Below are positions 4,128 to 64,000 of a DNA stretch of 64,000 nucleotides, in pieces (within the stretch, counting starts at the first letter, position 1; each line of letters begins with the position of its first letter). Source of the DNA: a virus. The notes below the pieces were generated by a model. That model ran no database searches. It was not told the origin of the DNA and was given only the letters and a program-made list of their open reading frames with translations. Both the position numbers and the translations under genes were made by a program. The DNA lies in the IMG/VR virus record IMGVR_UViG_3300010392_000664, positions 29,005 through 93,004 of that record; one strand, given 5' to 3'.

Positions 4128-4373
4128 CTATGGAACAAAACCACATACAATCAAGATAGCACCATCCCGAATTGCCTGGGTCGCTTGCTCTATTGTTACT
4201 GGGTCAATAGACAGTTCTTCTCCTTGATCATTGTATATTAAATCCTGAAGTTCATCCTCTTTTTCATCTCCAAATGAATTAAAATAAACTTCATGCAAAT
4301 GGGATAAGTCACCATCAAAGATGTAAAACTTTAATTCTGCTTGACAGTCATCAAAAATCATAACTGTTTTCAT
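4128..4373 (-). CDS. hypothetical acidic protein, 81 aa
   Basis: Small acidic protein (MKTVMIFDDCQAELKFYIFDGD at the start), predicted soluble, no recognised domain. It is tightly packed between the ribbon-helix-helix gene and the SLOG gene, with GGAG of its ribosome site inside the upstream coding end. Confidence 0.65.
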   Translation of the reverse strand: MKTVMIFDDCQAELKFYIFDGDLSHLHEVYFNSFGDEKEDELQDLIYNDQGEELSIDPVTIEQATQAIRDGAILIVCGFVP

Positions 4374-4374
4374 T

Positions 4375-4590
4375 TCAGCATCTCCATCCTGCTATGTCAT
4401 GATCAAGTTCAATGTTTTCTTCTATAGCTTTTTTCATCAAAGCTACCAAAGCTCCATTCATGGTGAAATCATTTTTAGCACACCACGTTCGAAATTCCGA
4501 TCTGAATCTCTTAGTGACATTCCGGATTTGAACCGTTGCTGAAGTGTCACCTTCCTCAGCATACACTTTTATGCCTTCGTTTTTTTCCAT
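4375..4590 (-). CDS. ribbon-helix-helix (Arc/CopG-like) DNA-binding protein
   Basis: 71 aa. A beta strand candidate (ATVQIRNVTKRFR) is followed by two helices (EFRTWCAKNDFTMNGALVALMKKAIEE), the pattern of a short RHH repressor or antitoxin. Such proteins bind DNA as dimers. No toxin partner is evident next to it, so I favour a small phage regulator. It ends 4 nt before the next gene's start region, within the helicase-primase operon. Confidence 0.7.
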   Translation of the reverse strand: MEKNEGIKVYAEEGDTSATVQIRNVTKRFRSEFRTWCAKNDFTMNGALVALMKKAIEENIELDHDIAGWRC

Positions 4591-16201: not shown

Positions 16202-18331
16202 TCAAGAACTTGAAGAACTCGAGCTTTGCCCAGAACTTGAATCACTGCTGTCTTCTTCCTCACATCGACTATCAACTAACGTATGCCCCAAAAACACAGA
16301 CCCCTCTCCGTCCTCAGCTATCGCATAAGGGTTAGCTATTCCGACTTGCTTGTTTTCCCAAACTAAATCCCCATTTGAATCCAATTGCACTAAAGATCCA
16401 TACTCTGGATTTTCAGTATTTGATGTGAAATAATACCTTTCCAAATCTTCAGAAATATGAACAGCGGGATAGTTTGTGTTACCGGTGGTTCTTTCTAATA
16501 ACTTATCAGGAGATTTTGCCCACACCATTTCTCCTTTTGTTATTGTCAATCTACTCACTTCATAAAGTTCATCACCTGAATATTCAAATATTCTTTTTCC
16601 CCATCTATAAAAAGATCCATTTCCTGAAAAGGTCATTGCCACCGTTGAGGCAGAACCACCTAATGGACTAACTCTAAAAATCCCAAACAAGTACTCAACG
16701 CCATCTATTTCTACAATTTCTGATCTTCCATAAGCCCAATCAATAACATTATCATTTATAACCGAAGTGCTCCCAAACAGTACTATTCCTCCACCTCCCC
16801 CATAAATGGTTCTTTGCAAATTACCATCTGTATCATAAACCACTATTGCAGGAAATTCGGAAGAATCCCGTTCAGTTGATAGCCATATATTCCCATCATG
16901 AATAGTCATTGTTCTTCCAGATGGAACAGCTAGAGGCCAATTTCCAGCGGTCACCTCCTGCAACCCTAAAGTGAATTTCAAAATATATCTTTGTAATGCA
17001 ACCTGCCCCATAGTATAAATGAATGATCCGTCAGTAACCATACTTGTAGGACTAATGCCCATACTCCACGGACCAGCCTGAAGTGTTGGTGTAGCGGCAT
17101 GATTCGTTCTGTCAACTTTGTAAAATCTAAAGGGAAATGGTGTATTAAAGGCATAGTAATAGTTTCCTATAAAAACACCTGCACCTAATCTTAAATTGAA
17201 GTATGAAGTTAAAGAACCCCCCGAATCAAAAAACGTCATCCCAGCTCTGTTGAATAAACCACCAACAACACCATCTTCATCGCAAGCATAAGGAGCTTCT
17301 ACACCAAATCCAGTTGTAGCCGAAGCATCCGTAGTCCAATCAGGCGTAGCAGAATCAGTGAAATGATTCATACCATTACTATTAGCAGCATAAAATCCAC
17401 CATTAGGATCCCCTAATCCATTCATAAATCCAAATCCACCAGATTCAACATCTCTAAAATCTTCCGAAATTGAAATTTGTCTTAATGTGATTTCATTATC
17501 TGGTAATTGAACATTATATGGACTTGATTCAGATATTCGCTCTTCGCCAATTAAAATATAATCACCATTCACATCGTAAGATTGAGCATTTTGATTAACA
17601 AAACCTAAAATGATTCCTGTTTCTGGATCTGCTATTGCCGGTCCTAGTCCTCCAGCATTCAAAAATAAGTTATTGTCAGTATTAAATGATAGTTGAGGCT
17701 GAGCTGTGCCAACAAATGAGCGAAAGGTGCGTGACAGGTAAACTAGATTTCCATCAAAATCCAACTTTGCTATTCTAGAGTAATCTAAAGATACATAAAT
17801 GAATTGATTATCTTTATCAACAGCAAATCCTATTGTTGCCGCCCGTCCAAAAAAAGTTCCATCAGCATGCAGTATCTCAACAGGCCAATTAGCTTGAACT
17901 AATTCAATTCCATTTTTATCTAAAAGATGAATATCAGCATGCTCATCAAAAACTCCAAATGTATGAGATGAGACTGACTGAGTATTTCCAAGAGGGGCAT
18001 GCTCATCATACCCGTTCACCTGATACCATTTTACATCTCCAAGCACACGACCGACCTTGATAGCCGCTCCAATAGGAGTATCAAAATCAGATGCTGATGA
18101 CGCTGATGATTCGCTATCTTCATCAGCTAATTCTCGAATTGTTGATTGAGAATAAATGAACCCGTCTATTTTCAAAGTCCGAGGAAGACCTACACGAGTT
18201 TGGCCGAAGAACTTACCATTTGCTATATTGATATTTGATAAATCAACCAAATCCTCACATGGAAATGGTTGATGAAAAAAAGCCCACGGCGGTCGGCAGC
18301 ATGGGCATAATCCAGAATAAATAGATGTCAT
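16202..18331 (-). CDS. putative distal tail/fibre protein, beta-propeller-like with Ser tail
   Basis: 709 aa. After a Cys-containing N-terminus (CPCCRPPW) there is a long beta-rich body with repeated 'D..G.....' turns (AVDKDNQFIYVSLDYSRIAKLDFDGNL, YAIAEDGEGSVFLGH), as in NHL/PQQ-like propellers. It ends in a Ser tract of about 16 residues. A short Ser cluster also lies near residue 75. The ATG overlaps the stop of the previous gene. Position after tape measure and tail genes supports a virion tip or fibre role. Confidence 0.55.
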   Translation of the reverse strand: MTSIYSGLCPCCRPPWAFFHQPFPCEDLVDLSNINIANGKFFGQTRVGLPRTLKIDGFIYSQSTIRELADEDSESSASSASDFDTPIGAAIKVGRVLGDVKWYQVNGYDEHAPLGNTQSVSSHTFGVFDEHADIHLLDKNGIELVQANWPVEILHADGTFFGRAATIGFAVDKDNQFIYVSLDYSRIAKLDFDGNLVYLSRTFRSFVGTAQPQLSFNTDNNLFLNAGGLGPAIADPETGIILGFVNQNAQSYDVNGDYILIGEERISESSPYNVQLPDNEITLRQISISEDFRDVESGGFGFMNGLGDPNGGFYAANSNGMNHFTDSATPDWTTDASATTGFGVEAPYACDEDGVVGGLFNRAGMTFFDSGGSLTSYFNLRLGAGVFIGNYYYAFNTPFPFRFYKVDRTNHAATPTLQAGPWSMGISPTSMVTDGSFIYTMGQVALQRYILKFTLGLQEVTAGNWPLAVPSGRTMTIHDGNIWLSTERDSSEFPAIVVYDTDGNLQRTIYGGGGGIVLFGSTSVINDNVIDWAYGRSEIVEIDGVEYLFGIFRVSPLGGSASTVAMTFSGNGSFYRWGKRIFEYSGDELYEVSRLTITKGEMVWAKSPDKLLERTTGNTNYPAVHISEDLERYYFTSNTENPEYGSLVQLDSNGDLVWENKQVGIANPYAIAEDGEGSVFLGHTLVDSRCEEEDSSDSSSGQSSSSSSS

Positions 18332-24117: not shown

Positions 24118-24840
24118 TTACGGTGAGGAGGAAGAGCTACTCGAAGCTGACGAAGTTGACGATGCCGACGAACTCGACAGACTACTACTTGATGACGATA
24201 CCGATGACACTGAGCTGCTGCTTGACGAGCTACTCGACACCGAGCTACTGGAAGAGCTGCTTGACGAACTGGAACTTGCGTCAGCATCATCTCTACCTAT
24301 CAACAACACAGTGTAGGTAACTGCTGCTGAATTTGCCGTTACCTTAACACGATGACTTGATGCGTCCGTTACTGCAAATGCTGCTTCAGCAGGCTGTGCT
24401 TTTGCTAACCACCCTTGGCCTCGTAGCCCACCTCCTAATGCCGCAGTATGGGAACCGATCGGACTCCAACCATTTGTGGCGTCAGGTTCGACTTCCAGGA
24501 TACCAGCAGCATCCACCGCATTTTCATTCACAAACCCAACAAACACGATTTCTTCATTTAAGTTTGCCTGCCCATTTATATCGTTTCCAGCACCCGCCCC
24601 AGTGTCAATAGATCCCGTATCGTAGACATCAATTACCCGCGAAGATCCACTTGATAGGGTTTCTCTGAATTCCCATGCTCTGTTTGCTTCATTTGCATTA
24701 ACACCAGACGACAAAGTTAATGAAAGCACAAGCTGCTGCACACCAGACGAATTTCTGCTGGTGTTGGATGTCATTGTATTGACAACAGTAGCAGTGGCCG
24801 AAATTGATACTTTCGCTGCTGCAAGGGATCGTGTTCCCAT
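24118..24840 (-). CDS. virion protein with C-terminal polyserine tail
   Basis: 240 aa from the ATG at 24840 (AAGG upstream). A beta-rich N-terminal domain of about 190 residues (VQQLVLSLTLSSGVNANE, EEIVFVGFVNENAV) is followed by about 50 residues that are nearly all Ser, broken by single Val, Ala, Leu and Thr. Ser codons are mixed, so the DNA is not a simple repeat. One of six polyserine proteins in the window. It sits between tail completion and tube genes, so it probably decorates the tail or neck. Confidence 0.6.
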   Translation of the reverse strand: MGTRSLAAAKVSISATATVVNTMTSNTSRNSSGVQQLVLSLTLSSGVNANEANRAWEFRETLSSGSSRVIDVYDTGSIDTGAGAGNDINGQANLNEEIVFVGFVNENAVDAAGILEVEPDATNGWSPIGSHTAALGGGLRGQGWLAKAQPAEAAFAVTDASSHRVKVTANSAAVTYTVLLIGRDDADASSSSSSSSSSSSVSSSSSSSSSVSSVSSSSSSLSSSSASSTSSASSSSSSSP

Positions 24841-24850
24841 CACTTAACCT

Positions 24851-28269: not shown

Positions 28270-29736
28270 TCAGTTCATCAACTCTTTGAACTTTTTAGTT
28301 CGTTCAGTCCTTTCATCAATTTCTTGGAATGCCTTCAGGGAATCCAGTAATTTGCTCCGCTGCCCCCTGTCAGCATAAGCCAGAATTGTTTTCATTGCTG
28401 CTTCAACGCCATTACTTTCGGCTTGCTTGCGAGCTTCAGCAAGTTTCTTAAGATGCTGGAACAGGCTTTTATCTTCTATCTTAGTTGTCGTGGAAACATT
28501 AACCTCAGTTGGTGTCCCGGTTAGTTTGGGACTGCCGTCTTTATACTTCCAACCAACTCGAATGAAGTTTTCTTTATAACCATCATCATATTCTTCATAC
28601 ATGATGATTACGTTTTTCTGAAATGTACCAACAACATGGCAATAACAATAATCATCCATATCGATGTCATTTTCATCCAGATAACCCTTAACCTGAGAAT
28701 TCAAATCATCTCGAATGGCCTCGTAACTACCATCAATTGCCGACGAATAAAAACCTTTCTCGGAAATGACCAGATCTTTTTCTTCGGTCACTTCTTGGTT
28801 TTTGGTGTCATTGATTTTGGTTTCGACCGCATTGGTTTCTTTTGGTGAGCTACCTCCGCAGGAACATCCTTTACTTCCGGTTTCAGTTTTTGATTCGGAT
28901 TTTGCTTTTTCGTCATCTTTGTTTTCCTTGGCAAGCACTAAAGTTTCCGGCACGACGAAGGTCTTGTCACGACGGTCCCGGATGCCTTGGCCCACACTTT
29001 TCATGATTCCAGATGTAAGTTTACCGCCTTCAACCAACGAAAGCAGAACCTCTTCAACCACCGCATCAGCATTCGCCGGTACGGAAACAACGGATTCCTC
29101 AATGATGGCATACTTTTTGATGTCAAATCCACCAGCCATCCCATACTCGTCTTCATCTTTTAGCTGGCTGAATTCTAAAGCACTGAATCCGTGAGAAAAC
29201 CTACCCATGTCATTGTCAACCATGACGGCAGCGTCTTTTGCCACGTCATTGATATCCACAATGGCCGAGTAAAGCGACAAACTTTTAGAAGTATGGCTTG
29301 CAACCCCCAACATTTTGCCAATCGGCAAAGTATGGATATGTTGCCACAACAGCAACATTTTAGGATCAAGAACAGCACCATCTGTTCTTAGAATATCACC
29401 ATCTCGATCCTTTGTTGACGTTGTCAAAACATGTTTGATCACCATCAATGTATTTTTAGGAAGTTCAATGGAAAGACCATCTTGTGAAATGATATCCTTT
29501 CCCTTATCTTCCACAACCATTTCATCATTGCTGTAGGTCAATGTTTCCGATGCCTTTTTGAGAACATCAGAAAAACTGACATTTGATTTAGATGCAAATT
29601 TATAACATGCATCTAAACCAACGCACGACTCAACAGTCTTGACGTAACGATCTGCCGTAAGGATGCCGCGATTGAACTCAGTGTTCTTAGCACCGCGTTC
29701 TTTCAGCAACTTAAGCAGTAGCTCATTTGGATCCAT
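28270..29736 (-). CDS. prohead protease (S78/U35-like) with long C-terminal extension
   Basis: 488 aa from the ATG at 29736; a TTG at 29754 is also in frame. The protease domain (about residues 90-240) has the catalytic His in LLWQH (about 133) and the Ser in EESVVSVPANADA (about 215), as in herpes-like prohead proteases. It cuts the scaffold and capsid delta domain. Unusual: about 250 further residues, with a CSCGGSS knuckle, a globular section (FQKNVIIMYEEYDDGYKENFIRVGW) and a helical charged end. The extension may serve as a second scaffold. Confidence 0.85.
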   Translation of the reverse strand: MDPNELLLKLLKERGAKNTEFNRGILTADRYVKTVESCVGLDACYKFASKSNVSFSDVLKKASETLTYSNDEMVVEDKGKDIISQDGLSIELPKNTLMVIKHVLTTSTKDRDGDILRTDGAVLDPKMLLLWQHIHTLPIGKMLGVASHTSKSLSLYSAIVDINDVAKDAAVMVDNDMGRFSHGFSALEFSQLKDEDEYGMAGGFDIKKYAIIEESVVSVPANADAVVEEVLLSLVEGGKLTSGIMKSVGQGIRDRRDKTFVVPETLVLAKENKDDEKAKSESKTETGSKGCSCGGSSPKETNAVETKINDTKNQEVTEEKDLVISEKGFYSSAIDGSYEAIRDDLNSQVKGYLDENDIDMDDYCYCHVVGTFQKNVIIMYEEYDDGYKENFIRVGWKYKDGSPKLTGTPTEVNVSTTTKIEDKSLFQHLKKLAEARKQAESNGVEAAMKTILAYADRGQRSKLLDSLKAFQEIDERTERTKKFKELMN

Positions 29737-38013: not shown

Positions 38014-40608
38014 TTAGGACAAGGGCACCTCACAAGTTGCACTTTTTGGACTTACAATAATTCCAGCAGAGCTACTTGATGACTCGGAACTTGATGTTGA
38101 AAGACTTTGGCTGCTTGATTCGGAAGAACTGCTCGATGAGCTTACTGAACTACTCGATACCGATGAACTACTTGATGATGAGCTACTGCTGCTACTTGAT
38201 ACGGACGAGGATGAGCTACTCGATTGTGAAGATCTACTGGATGCCGAACTACTTGAATGAGATGATTCAGAAGAACTGCTGGATTCCGAAGAAGCCGACG
38301 ATACCGATGAGCTACTTGATGACTCACTCGATTGTGAACTGCTTGTAGATGATTGACTCGATGAACTACTTGATGATGATTCACTAGATCCCGACGATCG
38401 ACTAGAAGCTGAGCTACTTGATTTACTTGATGAGGTAGAACTTGATGAGCTACTTGATAATGACGAAGATGAGCTACTCGACTCGGAACTACTTGACGAG
38501 CTAGAGGCCGAAGACGGTGACGAGGACGACTCACTAGAAGCCGACGACGAACTAGCCGAGGAACTACTCGACGACGCAGACGACGACGATTCTGACGACG
38601 ACGACGACTCTGATGACGAAGTTGACGATGAGCTAGAGAGTGATGATGAACTTATCGATGAACTACTGGTTGAGCTTATCGAAGATGATGAGCTACTTGA
38701 TGATGCAGACGACTTGCTTGACGCAGAACTACTGGATCGACTGCTTGACAAGCTGCTTGATGATTCAGATGAACTGCTCGACGAGCTTACTGACGAGGAA
38801 GAACTGCTCGATAACGAGCTACTCGAACTGCTCGACAACGAACTACTTGACGAAACACTCGAAACACTACTGCTTGATATGGATGATCTACTAGAAGCAG
38901 AGCTACTTGATTGGCTACTCGCGGAACTGCTACTTGATTGGCTACTGGCAGAACTACTCGATTGACTGCTGCTTGATACCGATGAACTACTTGATGATGA
39001 TAAGGAAGAAGATGAAGACTCTGACGACTGGCTAGATGTAGAAACCGACGACCGGCTAGATGCAGAACTGCTTGATTTACTAGATGACTGTGAGCTACTT
39101 GAAACCGATGAGCTACTTGAAGATGAAACCGACGAGCTGCTTTGACTTGACACCGACGAACTAGAGGTGCTGCTACTGGATGTGCTGCTACTAGAGCTGC
39201 TGTTACTGCTAGATGTCGATGAAAAACTCGACGGTGAACTTGATGAAACAGATGATGACGTTGAATTTGACGGAGAACTACTGCTACTTGATTGACTACT
39301 GCTTGAACTGCTAGACTGACTGCTAGACGATTGCGAACTTACTGATGAAGATGATTGACTGCTAGATGATTGACTAGATGACGAATGACTAGATGACGAA
39401 GATTGGCTACTCGTAGAAGATACTGACGATTGACTACTACTGGATAATTCGGAAGACGAACTACTTGATTGCCCGCTGCTTGATTCTGAAGATGACGAAC
39501 TGTTGACAGAAGATAGCGAACTACTACTGCTCGACAAAGATGAAGATGAACTGCTTGATACAGATGAACTGCTTGATACGGATGAAACAGATGACGAACT
39601 GCTTGACAGGCTACTGCTAGAACTACTCGATACGCTTGAAGATGAAGATGTAGAAATCGAACTGCTTGACACCGACGAGTAACTCGAAGGTGAGCTTGAC
39701 GATAACGAAGAGGATACGGAACTACTAGAACTGTTTACAGATGAAACAGAACTACTTGACACCGAAGAAACAGATGACTGACTAGATGACGAAAACGACG
39801 AAGGTGAACTGCTGCTCGATCTACTTGATTCTGATGTACTTGAAGCCGAACTACTCGACAAAGATGACACACTCGATACCGACGAAGATGACGATTCCGA
39901 TTGTGAAGAAGATGACGAAAGACTTGATAAAGAACTTTCTGATGAACTACTCGAATTAATAGATGATAAGCTACTGCTTGATGAAGAATTTATTGAAGAT
40001 AAGGAACTACTGCTTGACGAATTCAATGACGACGGAGAACTGCTTGACGCAGAACTACTGGAACTTGAATTTACAGATGACGAAGAATCAGAGCTACTCG
40101 ATGACTCATCTGCCGCAGTGTAGTATACCGTTATTGTCAAGTGATCAACATATGCAACAGCACCTTCACCAGAATTAGAACCTCCCGTTACTGATACAGC
40201 AAAACCAAATGTTGATGCATTTATATCAGAATCAGTCCAGGTCTCTCCCCACAAGTAGGATGAACCTCCCAATGCACGAGAAGTTTCTGCACCTGACCAA
40301 GATAAGGTTTGATCCGTAGAACCAATGGATCCACCTTTGACTATTCGGGCAGCGTTATGACTCAGCACGCCGGTGAGGTCGTTGTCCCCACTTTCAGGAG
40401 TAACAACAATTCCATCTATCGTTGCTCCAGATGGGATTGAAAACCCGAAGCTCTGGAATAGAAGGTAGTGGGAAGTCGCAGATTCTACGTCAGCCGTCGC
40501 CCGCGAATCATCGCTTGACGCAGCATTTGAAGGATTCGACCATGACACAGTACCCACTGAAGCATCGTCAGAGATCGAACCGGATGAATTTGGGCCTTCC
40601 GATGCCAT
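38014..40608 (-). CDS. giant polyserine virion protein
   Basis: 864 aa. A 170-residue N-terminal domain with TVSWSNPSNAASSDDSRATADVE, LLFQSFGFSIPSGATIDGIVV and VDHLTITVYYTAA looks like a beta-sandwich attachment domain. About 670 residues follow that are mostly Ser, with single Val, Gln, Ala, Glu, Leu, Lys, Arg or Thr every 3-6 residues, and a short hydrophobic end. The Ser codons are widely mixed, so this is not a simple DNA repeat. Likely an extended, flexible or glycosylated fibre. Reverse-strand ORFs rich in Leu/Asp/Glu here are shadows. Confidence 0.75.
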   Translation of the reverse strand: MASEGPNSSGSISDDASVGTVSWSNPSNAASSDDSRATADVESATSHYLLFQSFGFSIPSGATIDGIVVTPESGDNDLTGVLSHNAARIVKGGSIGSTDQTLSWSGAETSRALGGSSYLWGETWTDSDINASTFGFAVSVTGGSNSGEGAVAYVDHLTITVYYTAADESSSSSDSSSSVNSSSSSSASSSSPSSLNSSSSSSLSSINSSSSSSLSSINSSSSSESSLSSLSSSSSQSESSSSSVSSVSSLSSSSASSTSESSRSSSSSPSSFSSSSQSSVSSVSSSSVSSVNSSSSSVSSSLSSSSPSSYSSVSSSSISTSSSSSVSSSSSSSLSSSSSSVSSVSSSSSVSSSSSSSLSSSSSSLSSVNSSSSSESSSGQSSSSSSELSSSSQSSVSSTSSQSSSSSHSSSSQSSSSQSSSSVSSQSSSSQSSSSSSSQSSSSSSPSNSTSSSVSSSSPSSFSSTSSSNSSSSSSTSSSSTSSSSVSSQSSSSVSSSSSSSVSSSSQSSSKSSSSASSRSSVSTSSQSSESSSSSLSSSSSSSVSSSSQSSSSASSQSSSSSASSQSSSSASSRSSISSSSVSSVSSSSSLSSSSSSSLSSSSSSSVSSSSSSSESSSSLSSSRSSSSASSKSSASSSSSSSSISSTSSSSISSSSLSSSSSTSSSESSSSSESSSSASSSSSSASSSSASSESSSSPSSASSSSSSSESSSSSSSLSSSSSSSTSSSKSSSSASSRSSGSSESSSSSSSSQSSTSSSQSSESSSSSSVSSASSESSSSSESSHSSSSASSRSSQSSSSSSSVSSSSSSSSSSSSSVSSSSVSSSSSSSESSSQSLSTSSSESSSSSAGIIVSPKSATCEVPLS

Positions 40609-41073: not shown

Positions 41074-43242
41074 CTAAATCAAATCAGAAGCCGACGACGA
41101 AGCCGGTTCATTATTTGTTAAAACCGACGATTCTGACGGTCCTGTACCTTCTACCGTTTTACCGACTGGAAAATCAAGGATCCCTTCGGAACTACTTGTG
41201 CTGGAGCTGCTTGATTGTGAAGAAACACTGGATTGACTTGAGCTTGACACACTTGAACTAGAAACCGAGGACTCGCTTGAACTTTGTGAACTTACTTCCG
41301 ATTGACTGGAACTGCTTGAACTTTGTGAACTTGCGGAACTGCTCGATACTGAAGAAATGCTTGATGAAGAAATTGACGAAGAACTGAAACTTGATAAGCT
41401 CGATGCACTAGATGATGAAAAACTACTTAATGACGAGACACTTGACACACTCGATGAAGAAGCAGATGAGATGCTTGATGCACTGGATACCGAAGAATTG
41501 CTTGATGACGATACCGATGAGCTACTTAATGATGATACTGATGAAACACTTGATGAGGAAACAGATGAGACGCTAGAACTACTAAATGAACTACTGGAGC
41601 TAGAATTTATTGAACTTAATGAACTGCTTGAACTACTCGAATTTTCTGCCGATTGAGAACTTGAGCTGCTTGAATTCAGTGATGATGGGCTGCTAGAGCT
41701 ACTTGAATTTATTGATGATAGGGAACTGCTGCTTGATACACTAGATGCACTAGAACTGCTTGAATTTAAACTGCTTTGTGAACTACTGGAACTGCTTGAA
41801 TTTACAGATGACAGAGAACTAGAACTACTCGATGAATTTACAGATGACAGAGAACTACTGGAACTGCTTGAATTCACCGATGACAGAGAACTTGAGCTGC
41901 TGGAGTTTATAGATGAGGATGAGCTATGTGAGCTTGAACTACTGGAATTTAAACTACTAGACGAACTGCTTGACGTTCCAAGAGAAGATAACGAACTACT
42001 GGAGCTGCTCGATGAATTTAATGAACTACTGGATGAAGTCAGGGAACTCGAGCTTGATGTTCCAAGAGAAGAGGAAGGTGAAGAAGACGAGCTGCTCGAA
42101 TTTACCGATGATGGAGAACTGGAACTACTGGATGAATTTAAGCTACTTTGTGAACTACTAGAACTGCTCGAATTTATTGAAGATGATGAATGACTAGAAC
42201 TTGAGCTGTTGATGCTGCTTTGTGAACTGCTCGATGATGAATTATCACCACCTCTCAATTCATTTCCATCAAATGCACCTATACTCCAAGTAGTTGCCCC
42301 AGCATTACGATCATACCCTGTAATGTCTAATTCTACATCTGTTGGAGTTGTTCCATAATCATTGCCCGCCTCGAATATATCAGCATCCACATCTTGAATA
42401 TGGTAGTCTTCACTGCCTACCGTTGTAGAAACGAACTGATTCGCTCTTGTTATCGAATCAATGGCACCCGTTCCACTTGCTGATGTATCCTCTGCTGCAT
42501 TGTATTCAGTTTGAGCATTAGTTGGTGAAGCCAAACTGTAATCTTGAATAGTACCAGAAGTAGATCCGCTAACTCCCGTAACAACGCAATTTTTATATTC
42601 ATTATTTGCATTGTCACCCATCGCCAAACCGTAACAACTGCCGGTTCCAAGATTATTGACAATGTTATCAACAGTTACGTTGAACACTTCTTGAATACGG
42701 ACATTATTTGCAGTTGAACAATAAACTCCTGTCACAACATTCGCAGTAGAGGCCGAGTTTGATATTCCATAAACCACACTATTATGAAATTCACAACCAC
42801 CATTGAGAACTTTGAAACCATTTTGACTATTATTATTGGATGTGCAATCATGCAAGATCAACCACTTATAGAAATTTTGACTATTTCTATCTGTACCTGA
42901 CCGAGCATCATAAACAATCCCCTCATTAGAACCGACACTAAAACCAGCGACATCTATATCCAACCATTCTACAGTAGTATTTGGAACCGCAACAGATACG
43001 ACACTGTCATTATCTGTTCTTACAATCTCTACTCCGGTGCCTTCAGTCCCGTCATGCCTATGTCCAGATGCTACCGATAGCGTAATATCATCAGGATCTG
43101 TGTCATTAATAATGACAGCTTCATCAAATGGAGAATCGTCGTAGCATTCACCAAGTTGGGATCCCGTTCCTAGAGCTGCCTCCCACGAAGCTATTGTTGT
43201 GTAGTCTCCGGTTCCGTTTGATCTAATAGCTAAAGTTGGCAT
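41074..43242 (-). CDS. beta-helix protein with polyserine half
   Basis: 722 aa. The N-terminal 335 residues look like a right-handed beta helix (repeated NNVRIQEVFNVTVDN, NEYKNCVVTGVSGST, GFKVLNGGCEFHNSVVYG), a fold of phage tailspikes and polysaccharide lyases. The next 330 residues are Ser tracts punctuated mostly by Asn, Leu, Val, Gln and Ile, giving a regular 'NSSSSSS' cadence. The last 40 residues are less repetitive. The enzyme, if any, is unidentified: no catalytic set was seen. Confidence 0.65.
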   Translation of the reverse strand: MPTLAIRSNGTGDYTTIASWEAALGTGSQLGECYDDSPFDEAVIINDTDPDDITLSVASGHRHDGTEGTGVEIVRTDNDSVVSVAVPNTTVEWLDIDVAGFSVGSNEGIVYDARSGTDRNSQNFYKWLILHDCTSNNNSQNGFKVLNGGCEFHNSVVYGISNSASTANVVTGVYCSTANNVRIQEVFNVTVDNIVNNLGTGSCYGLAMGDNANNEYKNCVVTGVSGSTSGTIQDYSLASPTNAQTEYNAAEDTSASGTGAIDSITRANQFVSTTVGSEDYHIQDVDADIFEAGNDYGTTPTDVELDITGYDRNAGATTWSIGAFDGNELRGGDNSSSSSSQSSINSSSSSHSSSSINSSSSSSSQSSLNSSSSSSSPSSVNSSSSSSSPSSSLGTSSSSSLTSSSSSLNSSSSSSSSLSSLGTSSSSSSSLNSSSSSSHSSSSSINSSSSSSLSSVNSSSSSSSLSSVNSSSSSSSLSSVNSSSSSSSQSSLNSSSSSASSVSSSSSLSSINSSSSSSPSSLNSSSSSSQSAENSSSSSSSLSSINSSSSSSFSSSSVSSVSSSSVSSVSSLSSSSVSSSSNSSVSSASSISSASSSSVSSVSSLSSFSSSSASSLSSFSSSSISSSSISSVSSSSASSQSSSSSSQSEVSSQSSSESSVSSSSVSSSSQSSVSSQSSSSSTSSSEGILDFPVGKTVEGTGPSESSVLTNNEPASSSASDLI

Positions 43243-57665: not shown

Positions 57666-57736
57666 GTGCCAAACTGTTGAATCAGTCAACAAACTTCAAA
57701 AGACCCCCACACCCCCCTATCCCCCCTACCTTAACA

Positions 57737-58360
57737 GTTGACTAGGTAACCGTTGCCCCAGTCACCTGTTGACCGGGTATCAGTTGACTGAGTCGCCGTT
57801 GACTAGGCCTACGTTGACCCGGTAACCCGTTGACTAGGTATATAGGTGATTGAGTCAACTGTTGACTGGGTAGCCTGTAGACCGGGTATACGTTGACCTA
57901 GTAGCCTGTTGCCTAGGTATACCCGTTGACTGAGTACGCTGTTGACTAAGATGACTGTTTACTAGGACAACTGTTGAGGCGGTCAACTTGTTGACTCAGT
58001 CATCTGTTGACTGGGTCGCGGTAGTTGACTGGGTATACTGGTGACTGAGTCACCTGCGGGGGCGGGTAGTTGACTAGGTAACCTGTTGACCGGGTATACT
58101 GTAGACTAAGACAACTGTTGACCTAGCTGACACGTTGAATCAGTCATCTTGTTGACTAAGACAACAGGTGACTAGGTAGCGTTTGTTGACCGGGTACACT
58201 GTTGACTCAGTCAACTACAAAGATAGATAGTTGACTAGGTCTACTGTTGACCGGGTACACGAGTTGAATCAGTCAACTTGTTGACTAGGTAGCCTGTAGA
58301 CCGGGTAAACCGTTGACTAGGTTTACTTGTTAACTCAGTCAACTGTTGACTAAGAAACAT
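57737..58360. repeat. tandem array of 37 degenerate 15-16 bp palindromic units (GTTGACYNRGTMNNC)
   Basis: Units start at 57737, 57752, 57768, 57783, 57798, 57813, 57829 and so on to 58345, at 15-18 bp spacing (16 the most common), with two double-length gaps (58040-58069 and 58201-58230). The left half GTTGAC is nearly invariant (variants GTAGAC, GGTGAC, GTTGAA). Position 7 is Y, 9 is R, 10 is G, and 15 is usually C. Perfect palindromes occur, e.g. GTTGACTCAGTCAAC and GGTGACTGAGTCACC. No ORF is supported in this stretch. Confidence 0.9.
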
Positions 58361-58668
58361 ATTGATTGGCACGGCAATTGCAGCATATTGCCAGCCTAGT
58401 CAACAAAGATCTTTTTTTTTAGTCAACTTTTCTAGATCTCGCGTATACGGGCCATATTGCCCCCTTACGGGCCAATTGATTAATCAGGTACTATGCTATT
58501 GCCCGCGAGTTGGGGGTTTAGGTAATATAGGGCGTTGACTAATATGACTTGGTACGAAAATTGCGGTTGTTGACTAGGTAACCGGTATCGGGCGGTATTG
58601 TTGACTAAGAAACTTTCTTTTTTTTTCGGGTTTTGTTGACTGGGACACCTTATTATTGTAGCTAGGGG
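58361..58668. other. non-coding A/T-rich stretch with scattered GTTGAC sites
   Basis: About 300 bp with no supported gene. It holds two GTCAAC sites around a T9 run (58401-58430), an inverted GGGCCA pair near 58450-58475, and a partial copy (58600-58620) of the conserved GTTGACTAAGAAACTTT block seen at later gene junctions. A leftward ORF here overlaps the promoter and is not believed. Confidence 0.6.
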
Positions 58669-58697
58669 TTGACAATTGCCGATACTAAACCTATAAT
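58669..58697 (+). promoter_or_regulatory. consensus sigma70 promoter, rightward
   Basis: TTGACA (58669-58674), exactly 17 bp, TATAAT (58692-58697). Both boxes are perfect. The -35 also overlaps a GTTGAC site. Drives the rightward early genes; the first ATG is 62 nt downstream. Confidence 0.9.
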
Positions 58698-58709
58698 CAA
58701 TAGACCGAT

Positions 58710-58725
58710 CGGTTGACGTCAACCG
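58710..58725. promoter_or_regulatory. 16-bp perfect palindrome, operator candidate
   Basis: CGGTTGACGTCAACCG, a fused back-to-back GTTGAC/GTCAAC pair, lies just past the expected transcription start of the consensus promoter. Placement suggests an operator read by the same factor as the array. Confidence 0.6.
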
Positions 58726-58759
58726 ACAACCCGACAACCCAGTTGACTAGGAGAACCCG

Positions 58760-59029
58760 ATGATTTCCGCCTTTTTTACGTTGATCGGATTAGGATCAAC
58801 TCTTTTTTGCGTTGTTGTTGCCGGTCAACAATTGTACCGCAAAGGACTCAGTCAACTTGTTGACCTAGTATGGGCCGACATTGACGATACCCTAGTCAAC
58901 AAAAAGCCGACCGTTGACCAAGTATCAACTAGCCTACGTAGGGCAATCGACAATGCCCTAGTCAACGCTAAACCGCCGCAACTAGGCCAACTGGCCTGGA
59001 CGTTGGAAGAAGTTGACCAAGCAAACTAG
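58760..59029 (+). CDS. small membrane-anchored protein, motif-rich gene
   Basis: 89 aa. N-terminal hydrophobic segment ISAFFTLIGLGSTLFCVVVAG (about 2-22), then a charged body. AGGAG sits 6 nt before the ATG, inside a GTTGACTAGGAG. At least five GTTGAC/GTCAAC sites fall inside the gene and encode QQL, SQLVDLV, LVNK, TVDQV and LVNA, so different reading frames of the same DNA motif are used. No family recognised. Confidence 0.6.
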   Translation: MISAFFTLIGLGSTLFCVVVAGQQLYRKGLSQLVDLVWADIDDTLVNKKPTVDQVSTSLRRAIDNALVNAKPPQLGQLAWTLEEVDQAN

Positions 59030-59078
59030 CCGGTTGTTGACCAAGTACCCGATACCCAATACCCGAAAGATGACCGAG

Positions 59079-59237
59079 ATGACAACCCAAAAACCCGACA
59101 ACCGACAACCCGTTGACGTACACGATCAACTAGTCAACGCAATCGGAAAAGTTGCCGAAGTCAACGATATTTCGCTACGTCAACTCCGTCAACAGTTGAT
59201 TACAATCGTCAACGGGTTGACGAACCTTGTTGACTGA
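59079..59237 (+). CDS. hypothetical protein, 52 aa
   Basis: I start at the ATG ACA (59079) after the leader GAAAGATGACCGAG, the same leader used by later genes. PVDVHDQLVNAIGKVAEVNDISLRQLRQQL then ITIVNGLTNLVD; the VD-stop is GTT GAC TGA, a motif copy. Predicted helical. No family. Confidence 0.5.
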   Translation: MTTQKPDNRQPVDVHDQLVNAIGKVAEVNDISLRQLRQQLITIVNGLTNLVD

Positions 59238-59263
59238 GACCACAAACCCGAAAGATGACCGAG

Positions 59264-59431
59264 ATGACAATAACCGACCTACTCGTAGCGTTGACTATAT
59301 TGACAACCCTTCCCGCGACCGTAGCGTTGTTGGTACGGGAAGATAACCGAGTCAACAATGACCCAGTCAACAACTTCCAATACCCGGGCCTGTTGACTGA
59401 GTCGCAACGCCTAGCCGAAACCGACTGTTGA
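59264..59431 (+). CDS. small hydrophobic protein, 55 aa
   Basis: Short ORF after the same CCCGAAAGATGACCGAG leader. TITDLLVALTILTTLPATVALL is a TM-like stretch, then a polar tail with RVNNDPVNNFQYPGLL. Motif copies give RVNN, PVNN and LLTE. Stop TGA. Confidence 0.45.
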   Translation: MTITDLLVALTILTTLPATVALLVREDNRVNNDPVNNFQYPGLLTESQRLAETDC

Positions 59432-59486
59432 ACGAGTCAACGCTTGTAAAAGTTGACTCAATACCCAAACCCGAAAGGTGACCAAG

Positions 59487-59930
59487 ATGACAACCGACAA
59501 CCCGACGACCCCATTGACCAAGTCAACCCTAGCCGAGGTGATCCGGTCAACAACGGCAAAGTTGACCCAGACACTATACGGAGATCAATTGATCGACGTA
59601 GCTACGTTGACCGAGGCACTTTTTGATATTGCCGATCGACTTGACCCAGTCAACTTCCCCGACCAGATGATTGAGTCAACAAAACCGGTTGTTGGCCTAG
59701 TCAACTCGGCTTACCAACATTACCCCGCTGCCTACGTCGACAACGGAGTTGACTGGTTATACGATATTGCCCTATCGGAAGATGACCTAGTCATCTTAGA
59801 GTTGTTGACCGGGTCAGGGGTTTTGCGGGCGGTCAATCGCCGTTGGGAAGGTGGCCTAGTCAACTTTGTTGACTGGGTACAAAAAGACCTCGACGCCCGC
59901 AATCGTCATCACAGTCAACAGCAAGCCTAG
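59487..59930 (+). CDS. hypothetical protein, 147 aa, motif-rich
   Basis: Starts at the ATG at 59487 with AAAGGTGACC upstream (good ribosome site); the ORF's GTG is 9 nt earlier. Helical, acidic (KSTLAEVIRSTTAKLTQTLYGDQLIDVATLTEALFDIADRL). About ten motif copies are in the gene, read as KST, TLTE, PVNF, EST, LVNS, GVDW, LLTG, LVNFVDW and SQQ, i.e. in all three frames. Stop TAG is CTAGTCAAC. No family. Confidence 0.6.
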   Translation: MTTDNPTTPLTKSTLAEVIRSTTAKLTQTLYGDQLIDVATLTEALFDIADRLDPVNFPDQMIESTKPVVGLVNSAYQHYPAAYVDNGVDWLYDIALSEDDLVILELLTGSGVLRAVNRRWEGGLVNFVDWVQKDLDARNRHHSQQQA

Positions 59931-60363
59931 TCAACAGTTGACCGAGTACGCGGTTGCCCCGGTCAACAAATGACTGGGTCAACTGTGTACGGAGTCAACA
60001 GATGATTGAGTCAACAATGACCCAGTCAACAGATGACGCAGTCAACGTCAGCTCGGTCAACGGGCAAAAAGTTGACCAGGATGACTGTTGACTGAGGAGC
60101 CACGAAAAATTTTCAACGGTCGGAAATTGACGGAGTCTACTGGCGGAAAAAAGATGAATCAGTCAACAACAACCCGATACCGTGAAACCCCTGACCTAGT
60201 CAACAATTGGCGGTTGTTGACTAAGAAACTTTTGAAAAAACCCGAAAATAATCGTTTTTCTTGTAACATTTCGCGTTGCAATTACGCTTAGCAATATAGG
60301 CGACGGGTTGACAACAACCCGCAACGATACCCGATACCCAAAACCCGAAAAAGAAAGATACCG
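59931..60363. other. intergenic stretch: dense GTCAAC sites and first conserved module
   Basis: 59931-60090 holds about ten sites, mainly as YNRGTCAAC (CCAGTCAAC, CTCGGTCAAC). 60198-60222 is a hairpin AGTCAACAA/TTGTTGACT. 60216-60300 is conserved module copy 1 (GTTGACTAAGAAACTTT, then TTTTTCTTGTAACAT, then TTACGCTTAGCAATATAGG). A weak ORF spanning 60088-60291 is contradicted by the module and not accepted. Confidence 0.6.
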
Positions 60364-60564
60364 ATGGCCGATCAACGAGTATGGGACGAAATTGACGAAC
60401 AAGCACAAGCGGAAGGTTCCGGGCTCCGTCGGGCCTACCATAGCGTAGGCAGGCGACTGGGACGCAAAAACCTAGCCTATCACGACCGATCAACCGACCG
60501 ACAACAACAACCCCAGAAAAAGTACCCTAGCCTACTTGATCGACTAGAAACGGAAATCGGGTAG
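60364..60564 (+). CDS. hypothetical basic protein, 66 aa
   Basis: ATG preceded by AAAGAAAGATACCG. ADQRVWDEIDEQAQAEGSGLRRAYHSVGRRLGRKNLAYHDRSTDRQQQ; basic with a Gln-rich part. Nucleic-acid binding is conceivable. No family. Confidence 0.5.
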   Translation: MADQRVWDEIDEQAQAEGSGLRRAYHSVGRRLGRKNLAYHDRSTDRQQQPQKKYPSLLDRLETEIG

Positions 60565-60570
60565 TCGGTG

Positions 60571-60603
60571 ACCCGGTCAACGGTGTCGGGCCGTTGACCG
60601 GGT
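60571..60603 (+). terminator. gene-end hairpin built from an inverted motif pair
   Basis: ACCCGGTCAACGG (60571-60583) and CCGTTGACCGGGT (60591-60603): perfect 13-bp stem, 7-nt loop, each arm containing one motif copy. No T-run follows, so it may be an RNA element or a factor-dependent stop. Confidence 0.55.
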
Positions 60604-60917
60604 ATATGGGTTTGCTAACCCCCTACCGATTTCCCCAGTCAACTATCAGACTTCTGATCCCAATACCCGACGATACCGACACCAATACCAACAACAACGA
60701 TACCCAGGCAACTATAGGCTAGGTCAACAATCCAAAACAAAGATAACCTAGTCAACAAGTACAATCAGTCACCAATTTACCTAGTATACAATACCCCTAG
60801 TCAACAATTTACTCAGTCAACTTCCCACAACCGCCGACTAGTGTTTTCCTGGTCAACCGGTTGTCATAGTCAACAGTCTCCTGATGTTTTCCCAGTCAAC
60901 TAAAAGAAAGATACCCG
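60604..60917. other. non-coding stretch with GTCAAC sites
   Basis: About 314 bp with no supported gene. Contains eight or so GTCAAC/GTTGAC-type sites, repeated CAATACC/CGATACC strings, and the AGTCTCCTGA element at 60875-60884, which recurs at later gene ends. Confidence 0.55.
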
Positions 60918-61055
60918 ATGAACTATTATTTCACAGGATTCGGTGACCTGCTCGATACCGAAAACACTGATAATTGGCAAGATGATGATAACGAGGAAAG
61001 CGAACTGCTTGATTCTGAAATAGAAGTACACCTCGATGATCTAGTCGACAGTTGA
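60918..61055 (+). CDS. small acidic protein, 45 aa
   Basis: Too short for standard calling but it has the family leader AAAGAAAGATACCCG. MNYYFTGFGDLLDTENTDNWQ followed by a very acidic DDDNEESELLDSEIE. Could be a DNA mimic, in the way other small acidic phage proteins are. Stop TGA is in GTTGACTGAG. Confidence 0.45.
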   Translation: MNYYFTGFGDLLDTENTDNWQDDDNEESELLDSEIEVHLDDLVDS

Positions 61056-61108
61056 CTGAGTACGCGATTGTAAGTTGACCGAGTCTCCCTAAAAGAAAGA
61101 TGACTAAG

Positions 61109-61303
61109 ATGACATACGCACTAGCACGATTATTAAAAGACGCACATCCCGAACAGAACCCCCGATATTACCCAAACTACTCTGGTCGAGGAATGTACGG
61201 TGAGTCAACTCTCGGACTCGTCGTCAACGACAAGCCTGCCGTTATCGCGAAACGGCATCGACTACGATACGACAACCTAGGGCTCCGATGGATATTGTAC
61301 TAA
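61109..61303 (+). CDS. hypothetical basic protein, 64 aa
   Basis: ATG at 61109 after GAAAGATGACTAAG. MTYALARLLKDAHPEQNPRYYPNYSGRGMYGESTLGLVVNDKPAVIAKRHRLRYDNLGLRW. Basic, with Tyr/Gly loop. No family. Confidence 0.5.
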   Translation: MTYALARLLKDAHPEQNPRYYPNYSGRGMYGESTLGLVVNDKPAVIAKRHRLRYDNLGLRWILY

Positions 61304-61424
61304 GTCAACAATCGGCGGTTGTTGACTAGGCTGACGAGTTGACTAAGAAACTTTGGAAAAAACGCCAAAAAAACACGTTTTTCTTGTAACATATCGCGAG
61401 TTTTTACGCTTAGCTATATAGGAA
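61303..61424 (+). promoter_or_regulatory. conserved module copy 2 (hairpin + promoter-like block)
   Basis: AGTCAACAA (61303-61311) pairs with TTGTTGACT (61319-61327). GTTGACTAAGAAACTTT starts at 61338, then an A-rich run, TTTTTCTTGTAACAT and TTTTTACGCTTAGCTATATAGGA. The TATATAG end is -10-like. Precedes the gene at 61466. Confidence 0.65.
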
Positions 61425-61465
61425 AACAACCGACAACCCGATACCCGAAAAAAGGAACCTGACCG

Positions 61466-61672
61466 ATGGATCCGAACGCCACAGTCAACGAAATCGAAAT
61501 TGCAATGGAAGACCAAGACTGGGAGCAGGCAAGGTATCTTGCCGAAGACCTGCTGACATGGCTCGACAACGGCGGGTTTCCCCCGTCAACAATGTCAGGA
61601 ACCGAAGCATACGCTTACGCTTCCTGGGTACTAGAACAATCGGATCAACGACTGTTGATGTTGACCCGGTAA
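61466..61672 (+). CDS. hypothetical acidic protein, 68 aa
   Basis: AAAAAAGGAACC before the ATG. DPNATVNEIEIAMEDQDWEQARYLAEDLLTWLDNGGFPP resembles a small TPR-like or helical phage protein of unknown function. Confidence 0.55.
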   Translation: MDPNATVNEIEIAMEDQDWEQARYLAEDLLTWLDNGGFPPSTMSGTEAYAYASWVLEQSDQRLLMLTR

Positions 61673-61728
61673 CGCGGTCGCAGTCAACAAAAGTCTCCTT
61701 ACCCAACAACCAAAAAAGGAACCCGACT

Positions 61729-62070
61729 ATGTCACGCCGGTCAATGTTAGCCGAAAACATGTATGATGCCATCACCGAAATCATGGAAAAGGAAATTGAA
61801 GAACACGTAGAGGAATCGATCGACAACGTCGTGGAGGACGCAGTCAACTGCATCATTGAAGATAAACTGAGCGAATTGCGGGACGATTTGGAAAAAGAAA
61901 TTGAAGAGCAAGACCTACGGTCAGAATTGGACGATGCCATCAGTCACATCGAAAGGTTGACTGACCGAATCGAAAAATTGGAAAAAACCAAGGTGCCCTG
62001 GTATACACCAATCATCGACCGGATCCGTTGCCTCAGTCAACGGTGGCAAAACCGAAGAGTCTCCTGCTAA
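61729..62070 (+). CDS. coiled-coil acidic protein, 113 aa
   Basis: ATG at 61729 after AAAAGGAACCCG; the frame is open from 61558 but overlaps the previous gene. Continuous helical heptads (DAITEIMEKEIEEHVEESIDNVVEDAVNCIIEDKLSELRDD...) and a basic, Trp-containing end. Possibly oligomeric. The antisense ORF of similar length is a shadow. Confidence 0.6.
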   Translation: MSRRSMLAENMYDAITEIMEKEIEEHVEESIDNVVEDAVNCIIEDKLSELRDDLEKEIEEQDLRSELDDAISHIERLTDRIEKLEKTKVPWYTPIIDRIRCLSQRWQNRRVSC

Positions 62071-62117
62071 TCGTCAACCAACAACCCGACAACCCCAAAC
62101 CGACAAAGGAAAACAAG

Positions 62118-62417
62118 ATGACCAACAACACAAACATCACCGTCCCACACTTTGGATGCTCTTGGACCGACAGCATGACGAAACATCTCAAAAAGGAATG
62201 GTTTCGGCTACACTACGATGACTTTCAAACTTCGTTGACCGAGGCAATGCCGAGGATCTGCGAATCCTGGGGGGACTGGTACAAAGCCTATAAAATCGGC
62301 TGGGTACTCAGTCACCTTTTGAAAAGAGAGATGATCCGATTGGAGACCTACAATAACTGCATCGAAATCGTCGAACTATGGAAAACAACGAAAGAGTTGA
62401 CTGAGTCGCGGTTGTAA
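62118..62417 (+). CDS. hypothetical protein, 99 aa
   Basis: ATG at 62118 with AAAGGAAAACAAG. HFGCSWTDSMTKHLKKEWFRLHYDDFQTSLTEAMPRICESWGDWYKAYKIGWVL: aromatic, helical. Stop TAA lies in the loop of the hairpin 62396-62434. Confidence 0.5.
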   Translation: MTNNTNITVPHFGCSWTDSMTKHLKKEWFRLHYDDFQTSLTEAMPRICESWGDWYKAYKIGWVLSHLLKREMIRLETYNNCIEIVELWKTTKELTESRL

Positions 62418-62434
62418 CGGTTGCCTCAGTCAAC
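62396..62434 (+). terminator. gene-end hairpin over the stop codon
   Basis: GTTGACTGAG (62396-62405) pairs perfectly with CTCAGTCAAC (62425-62434); the stop codon of the 99-aa gene is in the loop. AGTCTCCTGA follows (62435-62444). Confidence 0.55.
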
Positions 62435-62447
62435 AGTCTCCTGAAAA

Positions 62448-62534
62448 GTTGACTAAGAAACTTTCGGAAAAATTGAAAAAAACATCAGATTTCCAGTAAC
62501 ATTTGCTGACTTTTTACGCTTAGCTATATAGGAA
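62448..62534 (+). promoter_or_regulatory. conserved module copy 3
   Basis: GTTGACTAAGAAACTTTC, A-rich run, CAGTAACATTTGCTGAC, TTTTTACGCTTAGCTATATAGGA. Ends 40 nt before the ATG of the 62574 gene. Confidence 0.65.
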
Positions 62535-62573
62535 GCAGTAACAACAACCCGAAACCGACAAAGGAACCCGACA

Positions 62574-62993
62574 ATGGCAATCAACCGCAAAAAAACCCAC
62601 AACGTACATGCCACTTTCCTGTATTCCGGAATGCCCGATTATTGGAAAGGAGACGGCAGCCGATGGGATGACGACAACGGATGCCTCTTTGCATACTACG
62701 ATCACACGACAACCCTTCGACAATTGATCGACAATTGGGTAAGCGATTTTGCAAACGGCGGAGACTGCGATACTATCGACGAAAACATCACCGAATTGGA
62801 CATCAAAGTAGCATTGTTGGAAATGTTGTCACCAGCAGGAGTACAAGACTATCACGGAGACGAATTGGCAGGATGTGCGAAAGACTACCGAGATGCGAAT
62901 ACCGAAGAGGATCTGGCAAACGAGGACTGGGAATCACCCTTCGCTGTCGTATTGATCGAAACAGAACCCGTTGACCAGGACGACGGGGAATAA
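62574..62993 (+). CDS. hypothetical acidic protein, 139 aa
   Basis: AAAGGAACCCG before the ATG. Body: YSGMPDYWKGDGSRWDDDNGCLFAYYDHTTTLRQLIDNWVSDF, GDCDTIDENITELDIKVALLEML and EDLANEDWESPFAVVLIETEPV. Mostly single domain, acidic. A phage-type hypothetical protein; no catalytic motif. Confidence 0.6.
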   Translation: MAINRKKTHNVHATFLYSGMPDYWKGDGSRWDDDNGCLFAYYDHTTTLRQLIDNWVSDFANGGDCDTIDENITELDIKVALLEMLSPAGVQDYHGDELAGCAKDYRDANTEEDLANEDWESPFAVVLIETEPVDQDDGE

Positions 62994-63032
62994 GTTGACC
63001 GGGTAGCCGGTTGTACGGTTGCCCTGGTCAAC
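62994..63032 (+). terminator. gene-end hairpin, long stem
   Basis: GTTGACC (62994-63000) pairs with GGTCAAC (63026-63032) and the inner GGGTAGCCG with CGGTTGCCC (with G.U pairs); loop GTTGTA. AGTCTCCTGA follows at 63033-63042. The same sequence recurs at 63625-63663. Confidence 0.6.
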
Positions 63033-63045
63033 AGTCTCCTGAATT

Positions 63046-63130
63046 GTTGACGGAGAAACTTCTGGAATTCTGGCAGAATTTGTCAGAATTCCAGTAACAT
63101 TTGCTGACTTTTTACGCTTAGCTCACTGGA
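63046..63130 (+). promoter_or_regulatory. conserved module copy 4 (variant)
   Basis: GTTGACGGAGAAACTTCTGG, then a short A/T-rich run, CCAGTAACATTTGCTGAC, TTTTTACGCTTAGCTCACTGG. The TATATAG end is replaced here, so the conserved core is upstream of that end. Confidence 0.55.
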
Positions 63131-63164
63131 AGCATTGACAACCCCAAACCAAAAGGAAAAACCG

Positions 63165-63629
63165 ATGACTAACAAACCAGAACCACGATTGATCAGCGAC
63201 ACAGATTTCACAGATTTCTATGCAAAGGAATTCAACGACAGCGAAGAGGCATTGAAGCAGGCAATGGGCTCCGATTATTGGAACACGGTGATTGAAGTAC
63301 AAGATCGGATTTTCATCGTACCAGAGAAGGTGGCCCAAACTTTCGAAGACATGAAGTGCCCTTTCTATCGGCACCGATTTGTTGCCATACTGGAAAATAT
63401 CAACGGTTGTGAACCAAAGGAGTCTCCTGTTGACAAAGAGCATGTGTACGGGTTGAATCCCACACCAACGTATCGCTGCATCGAGGATGCCATTGTTGAC
63501 GAGATGAATACCGTCCACCATAGATGGAATCATTTCGATAGAAAAGTCATCGAGTTGGATGACTTGGTCAGCATCATGCTGCGTATTGCAGCAAGGGTTG
63601 ATCCGAAATCAGTATCCGACTGGCGTTGA
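63165..63629 (+). CDS. hypothetical protein, 154 aa
   Basis: ATG at 63165 with AAAAGGAAAAACCG. SDTDFTDFYAKEFNDSEEALKQAMGSDYWNTVIEVQDRIFIVPEKV and IEDAIVDEMNTVHHRWNHFDRKVIELDDLVSIMLRI. Soluble, helical. TTGAC-type sites remain but are sparser in this gene. No family. Confidence 0.6.
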   Translation: MTNKPEPRLISDTDFTDFYAKEFNDSEEALKQAMGSDYWNTVIEVQDRIFIVPEKVAQTFEDMKCPFYRHRFVAILENINGCEPKESPVDKEHVYGLNPTPTYRCIEDAIVDEMNTVHHRWNHFDRKVIELDDLVSIMLRIAARVDPKSVSDWR

Positions 63630-63663
63630 CCGGGTAGCCGGTTGTACGGTTGCCTCAGTCAAC
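63625..63663 (+). terminator. gene-end hairpin, near copy of 62994-63032
   Basis: GTTGACCGGGTAGCCG, loop GTTGTA, CGGTTGCC then CAGTCAAC, followed by AGTCTCCTGA (63664-63673) and the ribosome site of the next gene. Confidence 0.55.
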
Positions 63664-63687
63664 AGTCTCCTGAAAGAAAGATACCCG

Positions 63688-63975
63688 ATGAAAACTTATC
63701 GTCTCATAAACGTAGTCGGTGGGGGATTCCTCATGGAATGCCTCACCTTTGGTTTCGCAGTCAACAATGCAGTCAACATCGTGCGAAAGTCAAGCAAGGA
63801 TGCTGGTGGGATTCACGTATGGTACGATGACAAACTTGTGGCGAAAATTGACCGAAATCAAAAGTGGGTTTCCGAAGAGCATATTGCCACCTTGGTAGAA
63901 ATCGAGGAATTGGATTTCCGTCGATGGTTCGACCAAGTCAAACTTCCGTTGACTGAGTCGCCGGTTGTTGACTAA
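63688..63975 (+). CDS. hypothetical protein, 95 aa
   Basis: ATG at 63688 after GAAAGAAAGATACCCG; the long frame from 63559 overlaps the previous gene. KTYRLINVVGGGFLMECLTFGFAVNNAVNIVRKSS, GGIHVWYDDKLVAKIDRNQKWVSEEHIATLVEIEELD. Beta then helix. It ends GTT GTT GAC TAA, using a motif copy as its stop. No family. Confidence 0.55.
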   Translation: MKTYRLINVVGGGFLMECLTFGFAVNNAVNIVRKSSKDAGGIHVWYDDKLVAKIDRNQKWVSEEHIATLVEIEELDFRRWFDQVKLPLTESPVVD

Positions 63976-64000
63976 GAAACTTTGGAAAAAACGTCAAAAA
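63967..64000 (+). promoter_or_regulatory. conserved module copy 5, cut by window edge
   Basis: GTTGACTAAGAAACTTTGG then an A-rich run identical in layout to copies 1-3. The region clearly continues past the window. Confidence 0.6.

Follow-up and report, generated by a model that had tools for sequence, protein, structure and literature searches.

Gene order and an 85-bp module ahead of small genes

The window, by which we mean the whole 64,000-nt stretch analysed here, runs from base 29005 to base 93004 of a virus record 93,004 bases long, so that window and record share their right end. The minus strand carries almost all genes, from about 57.2 kb leftwards, with terminase at the far left of the window and the capsid, portal, polymerase and RecA-like genes in between. 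Small genes on the plus strand follow from 58.76 kb to the record end. Judged by gene content, the phage belongs to a group of tailed phages that is coherent but poorly named, since its capsid relatives share much of the core gene set. These relatives were found in viral contigs with capsid (52-65% identity) and RecA-like queries; no relative was found there when the terminase and one small-gene protein were used as queries, and the plus-strand small genes tested had no homologue in the capsid-related phages compared. Several large minus-strand proteins contain long serine-rich runs (window positions 16202-18331, 24118-24843, 38014-40608 and 41074-43242), and serine-rich large proteins are shared in kind by the related phages.

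Within the small-gene region an 85-bp module occurs in four full copies and one cut copy (Table 1), as the original prediction had it; self-BLAST in the 93-kb contig (E 2e-19 for copies 2 and 3, 9e-18 for copies 1 and 2, 5e-8 for copies 2 and 5) and alignments confirmed both number and places. Copies 3 and 4, with the upstream hairpin included, matched at E 1e-28. A proper alignment of the copies, set beforehand as the refutation test, found them to be related.

The module is composed of the blocks A (GTTGACTAAGAAACTT), C (GTAACAT), E (TTACGCTTAGC) and F (WATATAGG). From the start of block A to the start of block E the distance is 66 bp in all four full copies, and the exact block E has no occurrence outside the modules in 93 kb. 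Copy 4 departs from this pattern in that its block A reads GTTGACGGAGAAACTT and block F is absent. Two elements thought to be common to all copies proved less general. Only copies 2 and 3 carry the exact TATATAGG end, copy 1 having AATATAGG and copy 4 TCACTGGA instead, and the A-rich run does not extend to copy 4, the middle of which is of another kind. It might be argued that ordinary recent duplication, or misassembly at a contig end rich in repeats, produced the copies, because they are alike and the contig ends inside one of them. We regard this as very improbable indeed, since the genes following the copies differ, the block spacing has been kept while the middle diverged, and 600-1100 bp of non-repeated genes lie between copies.

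Start codons follow the ends of copies 1-4 at 63, 43, 41 and 34 bp, respectively. A cassette before each small gene, with every gene as its own unit, had been envisaged; in fact the genes starting at 60364, 61466, 62574 and 63165 have a copy in front of them and those at 60918, 61100, 61729, 62118 and 63688 do not. Because five of the nine small genes lack a copy, each module, on the present map, stands at the head of a unit of one to three genes. That the module is a repeated cis-regulatory cassette ahead of small genes is well supported.

Table 1. Location of the features discussed in the text (window coordinates)
Feature	Position	Strand	Remarks
Sigma-like protein, 226 aa	5974..6651	-	putative; candidate module reader
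GTTGAC-word array, non-coding	57670..58360	.	16-bp (8-9-bp) period; lag-16 autocorrelation z 10.8
Dispersed word GTTGACYNRGTCAAC and variants	57737..63958	.	coding and non-coding DNA
Perfect sigma-70 promoter TTGACA-17-TATAAT	58669..58697	+	12/12 matches; before first plus-strand gene
Module copy 1	60216..60300	+	before gene 60364
Inverted-word hairpin	60571..60604	+	after gene 60364-60564; DNA fold z -6.25
Inverted-word hairpin	61300..61331	+	end of gene 61100-61303, before copy 2; z -3.7
Module copy 2	61338..61422	+	before gene 61466
Inverted-word hairpin	62396..62434	+	over stop of gene 62118-62417, before copy 3; z -2.2
Module copy 3	62448..62532	+	before gene 62574
Inverted-word hairpin	62994..63032	+	after gene 62574-62993, before copy 4; z -5.5
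Module copy 4	63046..63130	+	before gene 63165; variant block A, block F missing, 14-bp stem
Inverted-word hairpin	63625..63663	+	over stop of gene 63165-63629; no module after; z -3.3
Module copy 5	63967..64000	+	cut by contig end; first 34 bp 97% identical to copy 2

The dispersed GTTGAC word, its array and the hairpins

Block A is not private to the module. It is one variant of a regional word with the core GTTGAC/GTCAAC. The consensus of this word is GTTGACYRRGTMAAC, which is close to the palindrome GTTGACYNRGTCAAC, and the word is degenerate in the region, with only one perfect copy of GTTGACYNRGTCAAC and eight with one mismatch. Between 57600 and 64000 there are 129 exact occurrences of GTTGAC or GTCAAC, compared with 0.69 per kb in the rest, and GTTGACYRRGT was found 39 times in the window against 0.26 expected. 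The core word shows both orientations (68 plus, 61 minus) in a region transcribed in the plus direction, and inside genes it occurs in all reading frames. Close to the array its density is about 30 per kb; in the genes beyond 61 kb it has dropped to about 5-11 per kb. Since block A is one form of the regional word, it is plausible that one controller governs the region, as proposed; no such controller was identified, and a scan of ten genes of the region gave no significant DNA-binding match.

The array lies in the divergent intergenic region which separates the minus-strand from the plus-strand genes, and T-rich stretches lie beside it. A 16-bp period across 0.7 kb of non-coding divergent DNA with T-rich stretches adjoining, in a phage that encodes a replication-initiator-like protein, might point to iterons of a replication origin or partition site, in which case the modules would be side copies without a role in transcription. 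This is improbable, considering that the word runs on for 5.6 kb through genes and that the modules precede genes and carry boxes C and E, which are absent from the array.

A further word, AGTCTCCTGA, was predicted upstream of the modules. It is present there in copies 3 and 4 only, and is also found at 60875 and 63664 with no module following. Together with its near copies it constitutes a second dispersed word (window 60875-63674) that follows GTCAAC at several gene junctions, and words of this type were also seen inside two genes (62058, 63421).

The prediction of hairpins made of inverted GTTGAC copies upstream of copies 1-4 was borne out (z -3.5 for copy 1; Table 1 for the others). The hairpins at gene ends possess no T run. 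As strong hairpins also occur within genes, the association of hairpins with gene ends is only moderate. A terminator consensus scan found 10 sites where 8.5 were expected by chance, that is, no excess. A terminator role for the cassette may be possible, but it is weakened by hairpins without a T run and by a scan at chance level.

Promoter region or RNA element

Whereas a perfect sigma-70 promoter precedes the first plus-strand gene, none of the modules contains a convincing one; copy 3 alone has a site, a marginal 9/12 match. In total the sigma-70 scan found 12 promoters against 8.4 by chance. The suggestion that TATATAG is a -10 element is doubtful, as no conserved -35 lies 16-18 bp upstream and copy 4 is without TATATAG. 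Lacking a convincing sigma-70 promoter, the modules are either read by another holoenzyme or are not promoters. GTAAC is followed by CGCTTA at a spacing of 16-17 bp within the module, and this arrangement can be read as having the form of a bipartite promoter.

A candidate for the reader is the sigma-like protein listed in Table 1. It matched Sigma70_r2 (E 3.9e-6, over the cut-off) and the sigma factor family phrog_351 (E 3e-11); the match covers region 2 only, and the predicted fold is poor (mean pLDDT 44). A search of the contig for a T7-like RNA polymerase gave no match, although the control also went undetected and the contig ends in the region.

In the middle of the module two features compete, the phasing of tracts and the pairing of arms. 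Each copy contains three A/T tracts of at least 4 bp, spaced approximately 10.5 bp apart, which is about one turn of DNA. In copy 4, whose middle sequence differs, the tracts are retained, with AATT-type ones replacing the A and T runs. The 93-kb record contains 20 sites with triple in-phase tracts; its last 6.4 kb has four of them, all within the four modules. A test of placement only, used because a shuffle test mixes the possession of tracts with their phasing, gave p values of 0.07, 0.01, 0.26 and 0.03 for copies 1-4. Copies 2 and 4 are thus clearly phased, copies 1 and 3 only weakly. Promoters may have UP elements or curved upstream DNA. The phased tracts upstream of the core boxes resemble these, with the difference that the core boxes here are not those of sigma-70. 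Fixed spacing combined with phased A/T tracts favours a promoter-like DNA element.

We therefore tentatively propose, at slightly less than even confidence, that the module may be a phage promoter region with an operator block, starting a unit of one to three small genes. Block A, a specialised version of the region's palindromic word, would serve as operator. The middle would be intrinsically curved DNA, its three A/T tracts at the position of an UP element, and GTAACAT and TTACGCTTAGC would be the core boxes. Their reader would be an altered holoenzyme rather than the host's main sigma-70 enzyme, perhaps one containing the phage sigma-like protein. A protein binding the word could then control the whole region. 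The start of transcription at the module, the identity of the polymerase and the function of the word as operator are what we infer. The proposal draws on the copies themselves, with their fixed 66-bp spacing and their position always before a start codon, on phased tracts in each copy (copy 4 included, despite its different middle), and on block A, a variant of a word whose core is present 129 times in 6.4 kb. It is also in keeping with the three-copy module possessed by a related phage (G001, see below) and with the presence of a sigma-like protein in this phage. Against it speak the sigma-70 match, which is marginal and confined to copy 3, the weak phasing in copies 1 and 3, and a sigma-like match limited to region 2 in a protein with a poor fold and with nothing tying it to the module. 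Moreover, paired changes on both sides of the middle could mean RNA structure.

This last point leads to the main rival of the promoter region, namely that the module is an RNA element carried by a single long early transcript that starts at the 58669 promoter. Flanked by conserved unpaired sequence, its hairpin would be cleaved, shield 3' ends or govern translation of the next gene, and the hairpins at gene ends would be its partners. RNase III, for instance, cuts T7 early mRNA. A perfect sigma-70 promoter ahead of all plus-strand genes could supply such a transcript, and the arms of the module are able to pair as a stem. Changes on both sides were seen at 5 of 11 pairs, 84% of cells in the stem alignment are paired as against at most 58% in slid versions, and the stem of copy 4 reaches 14 bp. 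Yet the covariation comes from four related sequences only, and whole-module RNA folding of copies 1-3 is no better than that of shuffles. Watson-Crick pairing exceeds shuffles clearly in copy 4, less clearly in copy 2 and in no other copy. The total length of the module is fixed to the base, and Rfam models gave no match at the gathering score. An RNA element is consequently possible, though on balance unlikely. The middle fits curved DNA upstream of a promoter, as proposed above for the promoter region, and the stem might then be partly a by-product of symmetric tracts.

Parallels in other phages

Promoter early stem-loop (PeSL) cassettes of T4-like phages were reportedly described in Arbiol 2010 and Comeau 2014, and are said to have been proposed as recombination cassettes which let small genes swap between phages. 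By analogy, the modules might be promoter and stem-loop repeats enabling such swaps. They do flank unrelated small genes without homologues in related phages, but the same module is present in no relative found, and its fixed internal spacing indicates a binding function as well. This role is improbable; it does not exclude the promoter reading. Like PeSLs as cited in PMC4503421, our module is a repeated promoter-like cassette, possibly with a stem-loop, between small, poorly conserved genes. It differs in lacking a recognisable sigma-70 early promoter and in a stem that is strong in copy 4 and weak in copies 1-3; nor is the phage T4-like by any match found.

The SAS of cluster K mycobacteriophages is a 13-bp sequence with a Shine-Dalgarno core, 3-7 bp from the start codon (PMC3203893). 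In both SAS/ESAS and the module, some of the small non-structural genes are preceded by a conserved sequence that has inverted repeats on its upstream side, in SAS/ESAS at a subset of sites, but the module has 85 bp and ends 34-63 bp before the start codon. Cluster O mycobacteriophages carry 17-bp palindromic repeats with the arms TGTTCGG/CCGAACA in about 34 nearly invariant copies genome-wide (PMC4351075). There, as here, a single dyad-symmetric word is scattered through intergenic and coding DNA. The present word is GTTGACYNRGTCAAC, however, with arms other than those of cluster O, and it comes in about 130 degenerate copies in 6.4 kb, with periodic arrays and an added module. In cluster A mycobacteriophages, asymmetric 13-bp sites called stoperators are distributed genome-wide and mostly share one orientation (PMC6550527); the phage repressor binds them and thereby halts elongation. 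They too are dispersed words resembling binding sites, many of them outside promoters, but the word described here is palindrome-like, occurs in both orientations and is concentrated in one region, and no repressor was found. Since PeSLs, SAS/ESAS, cluster O repeats and stoperators each fail to agree in at least one defining feature tested, the module cannot at present be assigned to any of them. Functionally it most resembles a repeated early control cassette.

Neither word nor module was present, at the thresholds used, in 14 records related by capsid, RecA-like protein or a small minus-strand gene. Matches in the collection to GTTGACTAAGAAACTT, TTACGCTTAGCWATATAGG and tandem GTTGACYNRGT were rejected as chance, being scattered and without the word around them. 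Other repeated modules were nevertheless encountered. Three copies of another module, ~100 bp long, are present in G001 (L095:860-1060, 2590-2770, 4195-4400), each ahead of a minus-strand gene, with sigma-70-like boxes TTGCAA-16/17-TACAMT and A tracts upstream; the surrounding DNA is rich in GCAGC words. In G005, another related phage, a 1.2-kb stretch without clear genes (L084:8450-9640) shows a strict 5-bp period (lag 5, z 11.2) and holds five or six copies of the module AAGGACTTTTTAACTTCCAAGCAAACAAATGAGG. The G001 and G005 modules are parallels to the present module, not homologues. Two arrays of a 24-bp repeat in G005 (contig 81647-82175 and 88637-89165; period 8 codons) were dismissed as a parallel because they look like coding repeats.

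G005 also encodes a 481-aa Cas12f/TnpB-like protein upstream of a CRISPR-like array (L084:10912-12996, contig 70912-72996). The protein matched Pfam Cas12f1-like TNB at E 1e-21 and its best solved relatives at E 1e-52. The array lies directly downstream of the gene and consists of about seven 66-bp units with a 36-37-nt repeat. The locus is a candidate compact phage-borne type V system.

Taken together, the GTTGAC palindromes here, the GCAGC words and TTGCAA-TACAMT module of G001, and the 5-bp array and module of G005 raise the speculative and rather unlikely possibility that each phage of the group has a private word or periodic pattern plus a repeated module in a fast-changing region, reinvented per phage. 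Each phage would then have its own DNA-binding controller that targets the word, with a specificity shifting so quickly that coding sequence, too, is rewritten to hold it.

A few phage groups are known to have repeated control cassettes ahead of unrelated small genes, the readers of which are mostly unknown. The clear anatomy of the cassette described here (fixed spacing, phased tracts and two boxes), together with a candidate sigma-like protein, makes its function directly testable. A single palindromic word saturates coding and non-coding DNA more densely here than in the other phages considered for comparison. Should the word prove to be an operator, this phage would illustrate how an entire gene region can be placed under one controller.
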